Origin: Thermotoga sp. Ku-13t
Lineage (GTDB): Bacteria > Thermotogota > Thermotogae > Thermotogales > DSM-5069
Assembly (NCBI RefSeq): GCF_011057685.1
Contig: NZ_LNFY01000001.1
Coordinates: 744,001-808,000, forward strand
DNA: 64,000 nt
Reading direction: 5' to 3'
Shown: piece by piece, positions 9,244 through 48,073 of the stretch
Position numbering within the stretch: position 1 is the stretch's first letter
How the letters are laid out: each line of letters opens with the position of its first letter
Position numbers and translations under genes: made by a program
Notes under the pieces: model-generated
Databases searched by the model: none
Told to the model about the DNA's origin: nothing
What the model saw: only the letters and a program-made list of their open reading frames with translations

Positions 9244-9730
9244 ACGTATCGAATACACAGGTTCCATGATCGTAATGAGGGATGCCGCTCAAAGAAGGAT
9301 CGAAAAGTTACTCAAAGAAGGTTCAAGTTTACCTGTAGATTTGCGGGGGACGATCGTTTTCTATGCAGGACCAACGAGAGTCGTCGATGGGAGGTTCGCC
9401 ATAGGCCCTACCACGAGTGAGCGAATGGATAAGTATTTGAAGATGCTCTTTGAACTCGGGGTGATGGCCACGGTGGGAAAAGGAAAAAGGAGTGAACTGG
9501 CGAAGAAACTCTGCAGGGAGTATCGAAGAATTTACTTCATCGCACCAAGTGGTGCGGCAGCTGCACTCTCAGAACACGTTGAAAGTATAAAACTGCTGGC
9601 TTTCGAAGATCTTGGCACCGAGGCGATGTACGAGATCCGTGTGGAGAACTTTCCACTGATCGTCGCCATTGATAGCGCTGGAAACGATATCTTTTCACAA
9701 ACTCTTCCAAATGGAGGTAGGGACGCATGA
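9215..9730 (+). CDS. fumB: Class I fumarate hydratase, beta subunit
   Basis: A 171-residue protein matching the C-terminal (beta) swivelling domain of class I fumarases: [16 protein letters not shown] near the start, [21 protein letters not shown] and TVGKGKRS. It completes the active site with the alpha subunit encoded just upstream. The TTG start at 9215 is supported by AGGAGTGG nine bases before it. The stop overlaps the chemoreceptor start as ATGA. Confidence 0.9.
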
Positions 9731-11208
9731 AACTCGTGTGGGCAACAGTTGCTGCAGTTGGTGTGGTTTCAGCGGTGTTGGTCTTTCCATTTTCAAAAAT
9801 CGTCACAGTTTGCTGTCTTGTACTTCTGGCGCTTGGATTCTTCTTACCGCGCGGAAAGAAACAGGAAATCGTTGAACATGGAGAAAAAGGTGAAAAACTC
9901 TTCGAAGAGATATTCCTGTCGGCGAACATGTTGAAAGAAGATGCGCAGGAACTGAGCGACGTTTCTAACCAGGCTCAAACCATGTCGATGGATCTGTCTG
10001 AACAATCGAAAAAAATATCCCAGCTGATCCAATCCCTTACGGCAGCACTCGAGGAAACTTCCTCAAGCACGAGTGAGATTGCCAGAACTGCAAAGGCCGT
10101 TGGAGACGATGCGAGGAAAATGCGGAACGATTTTGTTCAGCTCGAGTTCGGGGTGAACGAGATACACGATGCGCTGATGAAGCTTTCAAGAGAGAATGTT
10201 CAGGCATCTCAGAGAGTCGATCAACTCCTCTCATCGATGAAGAATCTCAGAGAAAGGACCGAATCCATAGTACAGGCCGTTCAGCTCATCAGAAACATTG
10301 CAGACCAGACGAACCTCCTCGCCCTCAACGCGGCTATAGAGGCAGCACGCGCAGGTGAACATGGCCGTGGGTTTGCAGTGGTGGCAGAAGAAGTCAGAAA
10401 GCTCGCGGAACAGTCCAAGAGGTTTGCCGATTCAATTGTCGAAAACGTTCATGACGTCGAACAAGCCGTTGTGGAGTCCGTGAAAGAAAACGAGGATGTC
10501 GCCAGGATCGTGAAAGAAACTGCCCAGTACAGCCAAATCTTCGCCGAAAGGTTGGAAAATTTCAAAAACCAGGCAAACAGTTTCGCAAAAACACTAGAAG
10601 AAATGGTGCAGTCCATAGAGAGTCAGGTCAATTCCACCAGAGAGATCGAGCTCGCCGTGAACAGCAACACGAACACCGCGTCACAGTTGATGGAATTTGG
10701 TACAGAAATGGAGAAGAATGCCGTCTCTCTTGAGAAAGTTGCCTCACAGCTCGCAGAGAAATCTCAGATCCTGAGATTGAGATCTCTCAAGCTCAGAGGT
10801 CTGGCTGGTGCGAGGACATGGATCATGGATAGGATAAGGGAGCTTTCTGAATTGTTTGCGAGACCAGAGTGTCAGAATCTCGACTGGCGTTCTTTCGAAC
10901 CTATAGCGAAACGCTTCCTCGAGGAGAAAGGTGGTATATACGAAGCAGTGTTCATAGCAGATAGCGATGGCAACTTCATCACAACCATAGGCACAACGGG
11001 CACGATAAAGGACAGGAATTACTTTCGGCGCTTGAAAAGCGACAACTTGGACTGGACGATCTCCGATCCAATTCGATCTCGCGCTACTGGGAATATGGTA
11101 CTCACAATCGCGTTCACGATCCGTGAGAACGGGAAGTTCAAGGGTGTCGCCGGGGTCAACCTGAACGTCTCCAAGCTGGAAGAACAGATGAATTTCTCGG
11201 TGACTTAA
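9727..11208 (+). CDS. Methyl-accepting chemotaxis protein with C-terminal Cache/PAS-like domain
   Basis: A 493-residue chemoreceptor. Residues 4-20 and 25-41 form a tight membrane hairpin with almost no extracytoplasmic loop. A long coiled coil follows, whose tip [21 protein letters not shown] (about 190-210) is the conserved CheA/CheW-contact region. Residues about 362-493 form a globular domain with [45 protein letters not shown] and [13 protein letters not shown], resembling the ligand-binding half of a Cache domain or a PAS-like fold. That domain is normally N-terminal and extracytoplasmic; here it should be cytoplasmic. The gene is coupled to fumB by ATGA and ends in an interlocked stop with the convergent ATPase gene. 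Confidence 0.9.
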
Positions 11209-12164
11209 CTGCAGAAGTGACACCTGCAAAAGTGACCTGGTGAAACTTCGATGAGATCCGGTTCCACACTTTTGCAGATTTCAACTGCCCGAATGCAGCG
11301 CGTGTGGTAGACACAACCAGATGGAGGGTTCGCCGGGCTCGGTATTTCACCTTTCGGGATCGATCTGATACGTCTACCAGTTCCGAAAGAGGGGATGGAA
11401 TCGAGTAAAGCCCTGGTGTAAGGGTGCGAAGCTCTTTCAAAGATATCCTCTTTCGATCCCATTTCCATGATCTTTCCGAGATACATCACCGCAACGTGCG
11501 TCGCCATGTGATCGACGACAGCAAGATTGTGCGTGATGAACATGTAGGTCAGATTGAACTTCTCCCTGAGCTCTTTCAGAAGCGTAAGCACTCTCGCCTG
11601 AACAGAAACATCCAAAGCGGATGTGGGCTCATCCAGAACGAGGAACTCCGGTCTCAGAACCAAAGCCCTCGCGATGGCGATCCTCTGCCTCTGTCCACCC
11701 GAAAACTCGTGAGGGTATCTGAACATGTGCTCTTCTCTCATACCTACTAACTCCAGCATCTCCTTTATACGAACATATATCTCATCGGACCGCATCCTGA
11801 AATGGATCTTCAAACCCTCGCCGATGATGTCCTTGACAAGTTTGCGAGGGTGCAGAGAATTATAAGGATCCTGCTGAACGATCTGCATACGGCGTCTGTA
11901 TTCGAGAAAACCCTTCTTATCGAGGCGTGTTATGTCACGACCGTCATAAACAATCCTTCCTGAGGTCGGCTCGATAAGTTTTATGATGGTCCTTCCAAGG
12001 GTACTCTTGCCGGAACCGGACTCACCGACCACGGCAAAGATCGTACCTTTCTCGATCTCAAAAGAAACACCGTTCACAGCCTTCACGTAGATGGGTTTTG
12101 AAAAGATGGACTTTCGAATCTCAAAATACTTTTTCAGTGCCTCAACTTTGAGTAACACTGCCAT
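11205..12164 (-). CDS. dppF: Oligopeptide/dipeptide ABC transporter ATPase (OppF/DppF)
   Basis: A 319-residue ATPase with Walker [10 protein letters not shown] near residue 48, [15 protein letters not shown] signature, Walker [11 protein letters not shown] and the switch histidine in ITHNLAV. The C-terminal [16 protein letters not shown] motif with spaced cysteines is the extension that marks the Opp/Dpp subfamily and often binds an iron-sulfur cluster. It pairs with the OppD-type ATPase upstream to drive the two permeases. GGGGGATCGAG precedes ATG 12164, and it overlaps oppD by 23 bases. The substrate may be peptides or, as often in Thermotogales, oligosaccharides. Confidence 0.92.
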
Positions 12165-42564: not shown

Positions 42565-43566
42565 TTATTTTATTTCAACCGCCCGTAAGTATTTCGCCGC
42601 TTCCTCGGGAGGCATCGGGTTTATGTAGAACCCTGAACCCCATTCGAAACCAGCGACATTAGTCAAACGTGGGACTATCTCAAGGTGCCAGTGATAATAT
42701 TCTTTCCCTTCCCCATCTGTAGGAGCGGTGTGCAACATGAAGTTGTACGGCGGGTTGTCCAGAGCAACATAAATGCGATACAGAGTATTTTTCAGGATCC
42801 TCGCAAAATTCTTTACTTCTTTTTCAGTTATACTTCCAAAGCTGTGCGAATGATGCTTGGGCATTATCCACGTTTCGCAGGGGAACCTCGCCGCGAAAGG
42901 CTCTATCGAAACGAAGTCTTCGTTTTCTTCAACCACTCGTTCCTTTCTTTCGAGCTCCTGATTCACTATATCACAGAACACGCATCTCTCTTTGTACGAG
43001 TAGTATTCCTTTGATCCGGCCAGTTCCTCCTGAACTCTCTTGGGTACTATCGGTAGAGCGATGAGCTGACTGTGTGGATGTTGCAGGGAAGCACCCGCAT
43101 CGCGACCATGGTTCTTGAATATCAAGATGTATTCGACCCTGCTGTCCGACGCGATACTCTCGTAACGCTGTTTGTATGCCCAAACAACCTCTTCCACCTG
43201 TTTGTAATCCATCAGAGCAAGGTGTGTGTCGTGATCAGGAGTTTCAACGATCACCTCGTGATATCCAAAACCGTCCATCGCATCGAACATACCTACACCA
43301 TAGCGCTTCGGAGAAAGGTTTGGATTAACTGCCCCGAACTTGTTCGGTACGACCCTAACCCACCAGCCAGGGGTGTTGGGAGCCGTGTCCGGTGGTCTGA
43401 ATGCCAGTACTTCCGGGGGCGTCGTGTGCTCGTTACCGTAATCGAACGGGCAGAACGCGGGTTTTTCTTCAACTTTTGGACGGGCAAAATCGTGCGGTCG
43501 TTTGGCCCTTTCGGTGGCGATGATCACCCAGCGTTTCAGCACGGGATCTTTCCTGAACTCAGGCAT
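42565..43566 (-). CDS. galT: Galactose-1-phosphate uridylyltransferase
   Basis: A 333-residue enzyme of the Leloir pathway exchanging UMP between UDP-glucose and galactose-1-phosphate. It has ERAKRPHDF, NKFGAVNP and the active-site SLQHPHSQLIALP with the catalytic His-Pro-His, and the second-half WHLEIVPR metal-site motif. Zinc-site cysteines are partly seen (CPFD, CVFCDI). ATG 43566 follows AGGAGGATCAGTG. It is the last gene of the udk-glgA group and links galactose use to glycogen synthesis. Confidence 0.94.
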   Translation of the reverse strand: MPEFRKDPVLKRWVIIATERAKRPHDFARPKVEEKPAFCPFDYGNEHTTPPEVLAFRPPDTAPNTPGWWVRVVPNKFGAVNPNLSPKRYGVGMFDAMDGFGYHEVIVETPDHDTHLALMDYKQVEEVVWAYKQRYESIASDSRVEYILIFKNHGRDAGASLQHPHSQLIALPIVPKRVQEELAGSKEYYSYKERCVFCDIVNQELERKERVVEENEDFVSIEPFAARFPCETWIMPKHHSHSFGSITEKEVKNFARILKNTLYRIYVALDNPPYNFMLHTAPTDGEGKEYYHWHLEIVPRLTNVAGFEWGSGFYINPMPPEEAAKYLRAVEIK

Positions 43567-43578
43567 CACTGATCCTCC

Positions 43579-45039
43579 TCACACTCTTCGCTTTTTCAAA
43601 GCTTCCTGATAAACTCTAAGATAATGCTTCGCGGAACGCTCCCAGGACACGTCGGTTTGCATGGCGTTCTGGACTATCCTTTTCCAGTGCTGCTTCTCGT
43701 TCCCGTAAAAGTACAATGCCTTTGCGATTGCCATCAACAGATGGGCGGGGTCATACTCTCTGAACCCGAATCCGTTCCCAGTTCCAGTTTCCGGGTCGAA
43801 CTCTTTCACCGTGTCGGCAAGACCACCCGTATACCGCACGATGGGTATGGTCCCATACCTGAGACTGTACATCTGTCCCAAACCACACGGTTCGTAGCGG
43901 GAGGGCATCAGGAACATGTCGCAACCTGCGTATATCTTCTGTGCAAGGTCTATGTCGAACTTTATGTTGGCTGATACCTTGTCCGGATACTTCTGCTGAA
44001 GACGCTGGAACATTTCCTCGTACTTTTTCTCACCAGTGCCCAGCACAACAAACTGCAGATCGAAGAGGAACAGATAATCCGCAATTTTCTCGATGAGGTC
44101 CAAACCTTTCTGATCCACGAGCCTGTTGATCATGCCGATCAGCGGTACGTTTTCCTTAACTGGAAGATTGAGCTCTTTCTGCAGCATCTTCTTGTTTTCG
44201 TACTTTTTCTCAAGACTGTTGAGATCGTAATTCACGTATATTCTCCTGTCCGTAGCAGGGTCGAATTCTTCGTAATCTATCCCGTTCAGTATGCCGTACA
44301 GATCATCGGACCTTAGTCTCAGGACACCATCGAGCTTTTCACCGTACTCTTCGGTCTGGATCTCCTGGGCGTAAGTGGGGCTCACGGTCGTGACGATGTC
44401 GCTGAAGAGTATTCCGCCTTTCAGGAAATTGATTTTTCCATAGAATTCGAGCCCATCTATGTTGAACAGGTATCCAGGAAGGCCTGCGAATTTCATGTAG
44501 TTCGGGCTGAAGATGCCCTGATAACCCAGGTTGTGGATCGTGAAGACGATCGCGGTGCGTGTGAAGAACGGGTCCATCCTGTAGAGTGTTTTCAGATAAA
44601 CAGGTACCAATCCTGTTTGCCAGTCGTGCGCGTGAACTATGTCGAACTGCTGCGAAAGATGTTTCATAGCTTGAATGGAAGCTGCACAGAAGAATATGGA
44701 TTGCTCAGCCAGATCCGGTCCCTCGTAGACGTTCTCGGCAGAAAAATAGTACTCGTTCGCGATGAAGTATACTGGCACACTGGAACCTGGCAACTGTGAC
44801 TCGTACAGATCGAACGTCTCTTTTGTCTGCACGTTCTCCACAGGGATAGACTTGGCCACCTCAGTCAACTGATAACCGAACTTCTGGCTGTTCTTCATCA
44901 CGACCTTGTGCAAAGGCATGAATATGGCAACTTTCGCCCCACTTTTTTCTATAGCCTTTGGCAGTGCCCCAAGCACATCCGCGAGTCCTCCAACCTTGGC
45001 GAAGGGATAAACCTCATAAGCGACCATCGCGACTTTCAC
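43579..45039 (-). CDS. glgA: Glycogen synthase (GT5 family)
   Basis: A 486-residue glucosyltransferase with the N-terminal KVGGLADVLGALPKAI, the sugar-nucleotide-binding KxGGL motif, VHAHDWQTGLVP and the C-terminal MPSRYEPCGLGQMYSLRYGT with the catalytic glutamates. It builds alpha-1,4-glucan from ADP- or UDP-glucose. GTG 45039 has GAGGTGAGATTC upstream; GTG 45048 would lie on top of that site. It is six bases downstream of the secreted peptidase gene. Confidence 0.95.
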   Translation of the reverse strand: MKVAMVAYEVYPFAKVGGLADVLGALPKAIEKSGAKVAIFMPLHKVVMKNSQKFGYQLTEVAKSIPVENVQTKETFDLYESQLPGSSVPVYFIANEYYFSAENVYEGPDLAEQSIFFCAASIQAMKHLSQQFDIVHAHDWQTGLVPVYLKTLYRMDPFFTRTAIVFTIHNLGYQGIFSPNYMKFAGLPGYLFNIDGLEFYGKINFLKGGILFSDIVTTVSPTYAQEIQTEEYGEKLDGVLRLRSDDLYGILNGIDYEEFDPATDRRIYVNYDLNSLEKKYENKKMLQKELNLPVKENVPLIGMINRLVDQKGLDLIEKIADYLFLFDLQFVVLGTGEKKYEEMFQRLQQKYPDKVSANIKFDIDLAQKIYAGCDMFLMPSRYEPCGLGQMYSLRYGTIPIVRYTGGLADTVKEFDPETGTGNGFGFREYDPAHLLMAIAKALYFYGNEKQHWKRIVQNAMQTDVSWERSAKHYLRVYQEALKKRRV

Positions 45040-45044
45040 GAATC

Positions 45045-47459
45045 TCACCTCGCTGTCGAAATTATAGCACGGTCCTTCGAAACTCCAAGAATACCGCTCA
45101 AAATGTCGTCAAAACCAAACTGCAGGAACGTTCTTCCATCTCTCAAACCGATCTTTATAAAAGGTTTCAGGGGGATCTGGTATGAAACGTGCACGTTCAT
45201 GTCGACCCTCATCCAGTATTCTTCATGCTGACCGCGCGTCATGCCAAAACTCAAAGCGAAACTTTCAAATCCGACGAATCCATCGAAACTTCCAATGTTC
45301 GTTCTGATCGCTGGCAGAACAGTCTGAGCCGAGAAATTCAGCCCGGAGAGATCGAACCTGCCTCGTACTTCGAACAGGATCTGCCTGAAATTGAACGCTC
45401 TGGAAAGTTCGAAAAACATTTCTGGTAAAACACCCACAGTGAAGGAGAATTCGGGAAATCTTTTCAGGTGAACCAAACCACCAACGCTCCCATACGCATA
45501 ACCGATCGATAGTTTTGGCAGAACCTTTTCAGGTTCGATCGTTACCCCCATCGCCGAGAAAACAGTTCCGGCTTTCAAGGAGCGATCGCTGGTCTCGGAA
45601 ACGAGCATATCGAGTGCAAAATGCTTGTCGTTTGCCGTGACTGAAGCTGCAAATCCTTTTGAAGAGTTGAATGAAAGCTGCAGCCAGCCCGTTTCGAGCG
45701 TTTTTGCAAAGCCCACGACCATCGTGTTGTCCATCAGATCGTCCCAGAAGCCAAGATAAGCCCCAGCACCGAAGTCTTTCTGAGCTAACTCCACGTAAGG
45801 GAACGGCAGAAAGAATCTGAATCTCATGGCATCGCTGTATTTTGTGGAATTGATGCGTGGTTTTTCAGGCTCGGAAACAATCACGAAGACAGTTTCAAAC
45901 CTGACAGAACCTCTCGAAGCAACGTTTGCAGGTTCAGAAAACAGTGCATAACCTCCTGGCAGCGGCTTGATTGAAAAAATCTTTCCATTCCATCCAACGG
46001 CGGCGACGCAGTCCTTCACACCGAATTCGTGAATCTGGTTTGTACGGAGATCCACCGTGCACGCACGGAGCTCGTCTCCCAGCTCAGCCACAAAGTAAAT
46101 TTGATCGTTCAGTATGATTGGAGACAACTTTGTCCCGCCATCGATTGTCAATTTCTCCAGTCGAGCATCTTGCAACATGTAAAGGTCTACGTTCCGAAAT
46201 TTCCTGGCGGTGAAAACGATACGATTCTCATCGGCAGCGATCTGGAGCGGTGCCAGATCGTTGGGGATAGGAATCTCGTTCAGTGAATTCGTTTTCACGT
46301 CGAAAACAGTGATCTTTCTAGCATCGCTTTTCTGAACTATGAGTGCGAGTCTGTCATCGCCAAACCAGGCCACATCGATGACGTGTTCGATCCCGGTGTC
46401 CATCGTAGAACCTTTCCACAGATACAATCTGTTGACGTACCTGCCGTTCTTCAAAACTGTCCTGACGATGGCCAGTTCTCGCCTGGAATTCACTGAAAAA
46501 CTCACGAGGTTCGAAACCTCGATGAGCTTACGGCTTTTTCCCTCAAAGACGTCGTAAAAATAGATCGCTCCAGGCGCATCGTACCCTCCGAAAGCGTAGT
46601 AAATCCTCCACAGTTCGAAATTCAGCTTACTGGGTATCAAAGAAAGCTCTGTGAGCCTTTCCCCTTCAACGAACACCTGAGCGTTCAACCAGCCCTTGAC
46701 CTCTTCCAGCGGTACGAACTTCTTGAGGTGTCTGGAGAAACCGAGCAAGGGATCGTTCGAAAAACTGTCGAGTAATTTCTTGACCGTTCCTTCTTCTCGT
46801 TTCTCGAGCGATTCGAGCAAAGTGTATCCCAGCGTGTAGTTTGCCCCTCCAGGAGTGAAACGGGTTGTATTGATGGAAGAAGCGAACTTCAAGCCTATGT
46901 CGCTGGCCAACGCGTTCCTCCTGTAAAGGTCGAACAGCACGTCGTTCGCCCTTCCTTCGTTTTCAGCAGATTCCTCCATGATCGCCACACCTTCGTGCAA
47001 ATAAAGCGGTGTCAGGGTGTTCTGAACGGCAGCCGCAACGGCGTGGCCGAAGAAGGACAGACCCTCCACCTTCGGTGAGAAACGGTTCGCCAGAAAGATG
47101 TGAGCCAGCTCGTGTCGGAAACAAAATATGACCCAGTCATCGTATCTGGGGGTGAACTGGTACGGGTTCATGTCGCTGACGTAAATGACTATCACGTTGT
47201 TCAAAGGATTCGCATAACCGTTGGAGACGTCCGATCTGAGCAGATAAACCTTTGGCCTAATCTTTGGGGAACTTTCGAAACGCTTTTCCAGCCTTTCAAA
47301 GATTTCGTCGGCTTTTTGATAGAGTCTGTACGCTGCCATTTCAAGACCGTCTTCGTAGAGCACATCAACGTATCGTGTTGTCAACATGTTGAAATTGCCA
47401 ACAGCCCAAACCAGTGAGGTTGACAGGAGAAAAACGAGGATGAACATCGATTTCTTCAT
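45045..47459 (-). CDS. Secreted zinc peptidase-like protein with propeller-like and beta-barrel-like regions
   Basis: An 804-residue protein starting with a signal peptide (MKKSMFILVFLLSTSLVWAV). Residues 30-230 hold a gluzincin-like peptidase core with HELAH at 116-120 and LHEGVAIMEES near 155-164, whose E156 could be the third zinc ligand. Residues about 270-520 have short repeated strands with polar turns, as in TolB/WD40-like propellers. Residues about 540-790 are rich in amphipathic strands (LQLSFNSSKGFAASVTAND, FSFTVGVLPEMFFELS), like an outer-membrane barrel. The protein may be anchored in the toga. It overlaps udk by four bases. Not matched to a named family. Confidence 0.6.
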   Translation of the reverse strand: MKKSMFILVFLLSTSLVWAVGNFNMLTTRYVDVLYEDGLEMAAYRLYQKADEIFERLEKRFESSPKIRPKVYLLRSDVSNGYANPLNNVIVIYVSDMNPYQFTPRYDDWVIFCFRHELAHIFLANRFSPKVEGLSFFGHAVAAAVQNTLTPLYLHEGVAIMEESAENEGRANDVLFDLYRRNALASDIGLKFASSINTTRFTPGGANYTLGYTLLESLEKREEGTVKKLLDSFSNDPLLGFSRHLKKFVPLEEVKGWLNAQVFVEGERLTELSLIPSKLNFELWRIYYAFGGYDAPGAIYFYDVFEGKSRKLIEVSNLVSFSVNSRRELAIVRTVLKNGRYVNRLYLWKGSTMDTGIEHVIDVAWFGDDRLALIVQKSDARKITVFDVKTNSLNEIPIPNDLAPLQIAADENRIVFTARKFRNVDLYMLQDARLEKLTIDGGTKLSPIILNDQIYFVAELGDELRACTVDLRTNQIHEFGVKDCVAAVGWNGKIFSIKPLPGGYALFSEPANVASRGSVRFETVFVIVSEPEKPRINSTKYSDAMRFRFFLPFPYVELAQKDFGAGAYLGFWDDLMDNTMVVGFAKTLETGWLQLSFNSSKGFAASVTANDKHFALDMLVSETSDRSLKAGTVFSAMGVTIEPEKVLPKLSIGYAYGSVGGLVHLKRFPEFSFTVGVLPEMFFELSRAFNFRQILFEVRGRFDLSGLNFSAQTVLPAIRTNIGSFDGFVGFESFALSFGMTRGQHEEYWMRVDMNVHVSYQIPLKPFIKIGLRDGRTFLQFGFDDILSGILGVSKDRAIISTAR

Positions 47460-48073
47460 GCTTCCCTCTCCAACTTCTTAGTTATGTAGTTCACGACCAC
47501 CTCGATCGCCCGATCGTTGTAACCACCTTTCGGCACGATGATATCGGCGTACCTTTTCGTTGGTTCTACATAAGCATCGTGCATGGGCTTGACCGTTCCC
47601 AAATACTGGTTCACAACGCTCTCCACACTTCTTCCTCTTTCGTTTATATCGCGCATGAGTCTTCGAATGAACCGTATGTCACTCTCGGCATCAACGTAGA
47701 TAGAGAGCTCGTAGAGTTTTCTCAACTCTTCGTAGTAGAGGGCGAAAATGCCCTCGATCAGAATCACCTGTTTCGGTGCAAACTCGATCGTTTCGGATCT
47801 CCTCGTGTAAGTCACGAAATCGTATGTAGGAATCCTGACAGTCTCTCCGTGCAACAACCTTCGAACGTGTTCGACGAGCAGTTGATGTTCGATGACGTCC
47901 GGATGGTCGTAGTTCATTTTCCTGCGTTCCTCCAGAGGTAGATGACTCATGTCCTTGTAATAGTTGTCCATCGGTAAGATTGCGCATCTTTCTTCGCCCA
48001 GAGACTGTACGATCCTTCTTGCGACGGTAGTCTTTCCAGATCCGGTTCCTCCACCTATGCCAATGAGGATCAA
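47456..48073 (-). CDS. udk: Uridine kinase
   Basis: A 205-residue kinase that phosphorylates uridine or cytidine. GGGTGSGKTTVAR (P-loop, from residue 7), MDNYYKDMSHLPLEER and YDHPDVIEHQLL, then PTYDFVTYTRR and VILIEGIFAL match the Udk family. TTG 48073 follows GGGGGCGAGACG. A probable promoter lies at 48124-48151. It leads the group of udk, secreted peptidase, glgA and galT; the functional link is unclear. Confidence 0.93.
   Translation of the reverse strand: MILIGIGGGTGSGKTTVARRIVQSLGEERCAILPMDNYYKDMSHLPLEERRKMNYDHPDVIEHQLLVEHVRRLLHGETVRIPTYDFVTYTRRSETIEFAPKQVILIEGIFALYYEELRKLYELSIYVDAESDIRFIRRLMRDINERGRSVESVVNQYLGTVKPMHDAYVEPTKRYADIIVPKGGYNDRAIEVVVNYITKKLEREA

Follow-up and report, generated by a model that had tools for sequence, protein, structure and literature searches.

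We identified an 804-residue protein of Thermotoga sp. Ku-13t in which a predicted gluzincin-type zinc peptidase domain precedes, in structural models, a TolB-like beta-propeller and an Omp85-like C-terminal barrel. Its gene lies in the window, the whole stretch of 64,000 nucleotides that was analysed, and relatives are found in nearly every genome of the Thermotogota. On balance we favor the view that the protein is a zinc peptidase anchored by its Omp85-like barrel in the outer membrane (toga), facing the periplasm and probably serving envelope-protein quality control. Taken alone, the quality-control role is the least certain part of this proposal, and we put it forward tentatively, as possible rather than probable. 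The building and upkeep of the toga are poorly understood, and nearly every member of the Thermotogae gains here a second, cryptic Omp85-like barrel with a predicted zinc peptidase.

The open reading frame occupies positions 45045-47459 on the minus strand, starts with ATG and has a GGAGAGG ribosome site immediately 5' of the start; on the plus strand of this interval, stops break the reading frame. A preliminary description, made from the sequence alone, had the coordinates exactly right, and its account is corrected here in the strand, which is minus. Co-transcription with udk, glgA and galT, which it had also proposed, is likely because of the four-base overlaps with udk and glgA and the short gap to galT (Table 1). 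This gene order is conserved only within the host's own family, and the neighbors therefore carry little functional meaning. A conserved partner gene was sought in the neighborhoods, where neighbors differ elsewhere and none recurs widely outside the host's family, and the idea of a functional partner from gene neighborhood was dropped. In family f5 (L042, L043 and L044), the protein of the upstream gene contains HNHQPVGNF and resembles GH57 glycosidases. Both f5 (this GH57-like gene, upstream) and the host family (glgA, downstream) have a glucan-related neighbor, possibly by chance. All three domains of the protein are under purifying selection, with dN/dS of 0.17-0.22 against the closest relative, which is 89% identical.

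Table 1. Predicted features of the peptidase-barrel gene and its putative operon, in window coordinates
Feature	Residues	Position	Strand	Basis or remark
Signal peptide	1-19	47403..47459	-	MKKSMFILVFLLSTSLVWA/VG; cleavage VWA/VG by eye; AF2 helix 2-17
Gluzincin-type zinc peptidase domain	20-262	46674..47402	-	Alignment; helix-rich in AF2
HELAH	116-120	47100..47114	-	Predicted zinc ligands H116/H120, catalytic E117; AF2 helix 109-124
HEGVAIMEES	155-164	46968..46997	-	E156 = predicted third zinc ligand; AF2 helix 152-163
TolB-like beta-propeller	263-520	45900..46673	-	TolB by profile and fold; PD40 in homologues
C-terminal outer-membrane beta-barrel, about 16 strands	about 540-784	45108..45842	-	AF2, Foldseek, amphipathicity, profile-profile
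Disordered C-terminal tail	785-804	45048..45107	-	Low pLDDT from 787; host genus only
udk (uridine kinase-like)		47456..48073	-	Upstream of peptidase-barrel gene; 4-base overlap, ATGA
glgA (glycogen synthase-like)		43579..45048	-	Downstream of peptidase-barrel gene; 4-base overlap, GTGA
galT-like gene		42565..43569	-	Next in putative operon, after short gap

The preliminary description had read a signal peptide, a HELAH gluzincin site with downstream HEG and EES, a propeller-like region and an outer-membrane-type barrel from the letters, and had proposed AlphaFold-type modelling and a Foldseek search with the C-terminal part; each of these readings is supported by the results that follow. Single-sequence searches of the window protein against Pfam, NCBIfam and PDB gave no match, so an alignment of homologues was needed. 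AlphaFold2 returned a confident three-part model of the 804 residues (pLDDT 88.5, pTM 0.89), in which a helical peptidase is followed by a TolB-type propeller and then by about 16 amphipathic strands at the C-terminus. The signal peptide, recognized by inspection and modelled as a helix, has its counterpart in hydrophobic leaders at the start of the aligned homologues, and inspection found no lipobox in it. The last strand of the window protein is FLQFGF, followed by a 20-residue tail, and its own C-terminus is not aromatic.

Of the three domains, the peptidase varies least: mean pairwise identity is 30% there, 21% in the propeller and 18% in the barrel. The alignment comprises 36 Thermotogota homologues. 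All 36 have E156, E163, G169 and R170, and the 35 that cover H116, E117 and H120 keep all three; the remaining member is truncated at the edge of its contig. Given this invariance, the HELAH motif is not a chance occurrence, and a dead-enzyme reading was rejected since the predicted active site does not vary. HELAH and E156 lie on separate helices of the model (Table 1), with HEG at residues 155-157 and EES at 162-164; an HExxH followed by a conserved glutamate on the next helices is the layout of gluzincins. Furthermore, HExxH followed by EG was present in 18/18 out-of-phylum homologues checked. The family shares the HExxH ... EG ... E layout with the peptidase MA superfamily (PF13485, Peptidase_MA_2), to which the Thermotogota matches all fall below the curated cut-off: 9 of the 36 members match sub-threshold (best E 1.6e-4), and no Thermotogota member reaches 32.4 bits with this gene. 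The sole peptidase of solved structure matched by sequence was the cold-active aminopeptidase 3cia, a weak profile match (E 0.015-0.026). In M1 peptidases the spacing from HExxH to the glutamate is 18, shorter than the roughly 36 residues that separate HExxH from E156 in the window protein.

For the middle domain, the family profile found TolB as its top match among solved structures (best E 3.9e-10), and in relatives both PD40 and the TolB propeller model give strong matches. A Foldseek search with the full-length model gave solved-structure matches that were mostly propellers, TolB being prominent among them and the top bacterial one. Residues 263-520 are therefore TolB-like in both profile and fold. 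Unlike TolB, this propeller is embedded between two other domains and yields no above-cut-off TolB family match (TIGR02800): the window protein has no NCBIfam match, and none lies above the cut-off in 26 Thermotogota genomes. Elsewhere the same genome encodes another TolB-like propeller protein, about 417 aa long (G000:C11:270090-270857) and itself below the TolB cut-off, and similar proteins occur in most relatives.

Because propellers swamped the full-length Foldseek search, the barrel was modelled alone. This model (pLDDT 79.8, pTM 0.69) reproduced the strand set of the full one, in which about 16 strands of 8-14 residues run from 546 to 783. Its best Foldseek matches were of BamA/Omp85 type, namely BamA (8bwc and 4k3c), TamA (4n74) and Sam50, at probability about 1.0 and with modest scores (best E 0.004, TM 0.45); other membrane barrels followed. 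Hydrophobic alternation along the strands is 2.6 in the barrel and 1.3 in the propeller, a twofold difference. PF01103 (Omp85) does not match the window protein, and no Thermotogota member reaches its cut-off of 24 with this gene. Several homologues outside the phylum pass it (L098 at 55.8 bits, L119 at 43.5, L152 at 29.8 and L105 at 28.6), and profile-profile comparison links their C-terminal domains to those of the Thermotogota (global E 1.2e-8, local E 1.9e-6 to 2.3e-5). Like the signal peptide, an aromatic end of the last strand is an outer-membrane-protein feature, and 50 of the 66 complete named homologues have an aromatic C-terminus (F, Y or W), most of them ending in F. The PF01103 matches in this genome and its relatives are separate BamA-sized ORFs, one such in 30 of the 31 genomes searched; since the genome's match is this different gene, the window family is invisible to PF01103. 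No POTRA domain was matched in the window protein or in family members, the N-terminal part being filled by peptidase and propeller.

A single-sequence search recovered homologues from the host genus and family, plus weaker ones farther afield, and iterated profiles gave about 36 distinct homologues in those genomes, mostly of 760-895 aa. The profile matches 102 of 103 Thermotogota genomes at E<=1e-3, of which the weakest could be other propeller proteins, and about 92 at E<=1e-50; the one genome without a match is 60%-complete. With the same profile, ORFs of roughly 850-1150 aa were found in many other phyla, and in these the domain order is unchanged. A named scan included Edwardsbacteria, Nitrospirota, WOR-3, Gallionella, Alcanivorax, Pleionea, Acidobacteria, Myxococcota, Spirochaetes, Desulfurivibrio and others. 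Of 80 named loci, 78 have a frame with the pattern HExxH...EG...[E/H]; among their complete ORFs, the middle half measure 822-853 aa from HExxH to the stop. From this shared pattern and length, the peptidase-propeller-barrel chain appears to have been inherited as one unit. The preliminary description knew of no described Thermotogae protein with this combination and suggested a protease tethered to the toga or passing through it. The architecture is not special to the Thermotogae, and a toga-specific role was rejected because the family is widespread across diderm phyla; of the two suggestions, passage through the toga is the less likely, given the probable periplasmic position of the peptidase. 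The presence of the same chain in many phyla, including the cultivated Alcanivorax, leaves the family open to direct testing. The family is probably a core part of the cell envelope that has been overlooked, since no Pfam or NCBIfam model matches the window protein.

A tree of the peptidase domain divides the Thermotogota members into type A (support 0.97), which comprises the window gene, the host family, f4-f6, f8, f9 and one f2 genome, and type B (0.98), which comprises the Thermotoga-type f2, f3 and f11. One f11 sequence (L205:1660-4182, minus) falls outside both types, and it departs at E163 and GR, positions that do not vary in the other members. Searches with one query per type revealed that most Thermotogota genomes carry one type only and rarely both, while f11 genomes have another, divergent ORF in addition to type B. 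The host genome combines an intact type A gene with a type B remnant on another contig (G000:C9:85183-85809; L110:5208-5834, minus), which runs for about 200 codons to a TAG. The remnant is 86% identical in protein and about 89% in DNA to the L195 gene used as the type B query; the other two thirds were not found nearby. Such a remnant suggests that the genome acquired a copy and later lost it. More generally, types A and B largely replace each other, a pattern suggesting that a distant relative has displaced a core gene. The function is mostly single-copy and is supplied by either of two related proteins, which points to the family having a core role in Thermotogota. Separately, the f3 genome G042 has two intact type B copies close together (L052:4220-6814 and 9453-12110) with a lipoprotein-like gene between them.

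In the mechanism that we propose, the signal peptide would export the chain, the barrel of about 16 strands would insert into the outer membrane, and the propeller and gluzincin peptidase would lie at its periplasmic mouth. The peptidase may then cut envelope proteins that are unfolded, stalled or immature, while the propeller and barrel dock or present them, much as BepA works at BamA. One chain could do the job of BepA, its peptidase joined through a propeller to an Omp85-like barrel. We infer zinc binding, peptidase activity, an outer-membrane location and a periplasmic orientation for the window protein. A broader version, in which protease, substrate-docking propeller and Omp85-type barrel form a near-universal outer-membrane quality-control machine that clears or degrades misfolded barrel proteins in Thermotogota and many diderm phyla, seems to us unlikely.

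The orientation bears on the first alternative, a surface protease whose peptidase and propeller are carried outside the cell by the barrel or by BAM, for example for food proteins. Autotransporters have this layout, an N-terminal passenger followed by a C-terminal barrel, and for a long time PlpD was believed to work in this way, as Heinz & Lithgow 2014 discuss (PMC4104836). However, the N-terminal enzyme domain of PlpD has been demonstrated to be periplasmic (PMC11116518), and by analogy the peptidase and propeller of the window protein more likely face the periplasm, under the barrel. Export through the barrel would also require two domains that are folded in the AF2 model to cross it, and a near-universal, mostly single-copy gene is unlike accessory secreted proteases. 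We consider a surface protease improbable. A second alternative is an assembly or translocation factor of the outer membrane, akin to a BamA-BamB fusion, with the peptidase as a minor addition. Heinz and Lithgow proposed such a role for the WD40-Omp85 subfamily (PMC4104836), and the top solved barrel matches are assembly factors. Nonetheless, the greater conservation of the peptidase, the lack of a detected POTRA domain in the family and the separate BamA-sized Omp85 gene in the genome make this reading decidedly unlikely. Finally, a soluble beta-rich C-terminal domain on a secreted or periplasmic propeller-peptidase, which would accord with the low Foldseek scores, the Omp85 scores of Thermotogota members below the Pfam cut-off and the short genus-specific tail after the last strand, is highly improbable given that the displayed barrel-only matches are membrane barrels, that strand alternation exceeds that of the propeller and that several homologues score above the Omp85 cut-off and most have an aromatic C-terminus.

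A chain of gluzincin, propeller and Omp85 barrel was not described in the literature searched, a limited set of papers. Its parts have counterparts in several known systems. 'Metallo' Omp85 proteins fuse an enzyme domain to an Omp85 barrel, as is predicted for the window protein, and no propeller is described for them in the text examined (PMC4104836). PF00149, which defines this subfamily, is the calcineurin-like metallophosphatase family and not a gluzincin. In PlpD, a patatin-Omp85 protein, the hydrolase is likewise N-terminal and the Omp85 barrel, of 16 strands, C-terminal; its enzyme is patatin-like and lipolytic, and the protein has a POTRA domain and contains neither propeller nor zinc peptidase (PMC11116518). 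BepA, an M48 zinc metallopeptidase of the periplasm, resembles the proposed role of the window protein: it promotes LptD maturation or degrades LptD at the BAM complex (PMC8423444). Unlike the window protein, it is separate from the barrel, carries TPR repeats and belongs to a different sequence family. Heinz & Lithgow 2014 describe non-POTRA Omp85 subfamilies, WD40-Omp85 proteins among them, and state that in early-branching phyla, including Thermotogae, one BamA is often the sole Omp85 protein encoded (PMC4104836). WD40-Omp85 proteins have a TolB-like propeller N-terminal to an Omp85-type barrel, without POTRA, an arrangement that is also predicted for the window protein; in the text examined the propeller alone is described, and a gluzincin peptidase ahead of it is not mentioned (PMC4104836). 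Their WD40-Omp85 cluster may already list some relatives of the window family. The chain of gluzincin, propeller and Omp85-like barrel would be a variant of the non-POTRA Omp85 proteins.
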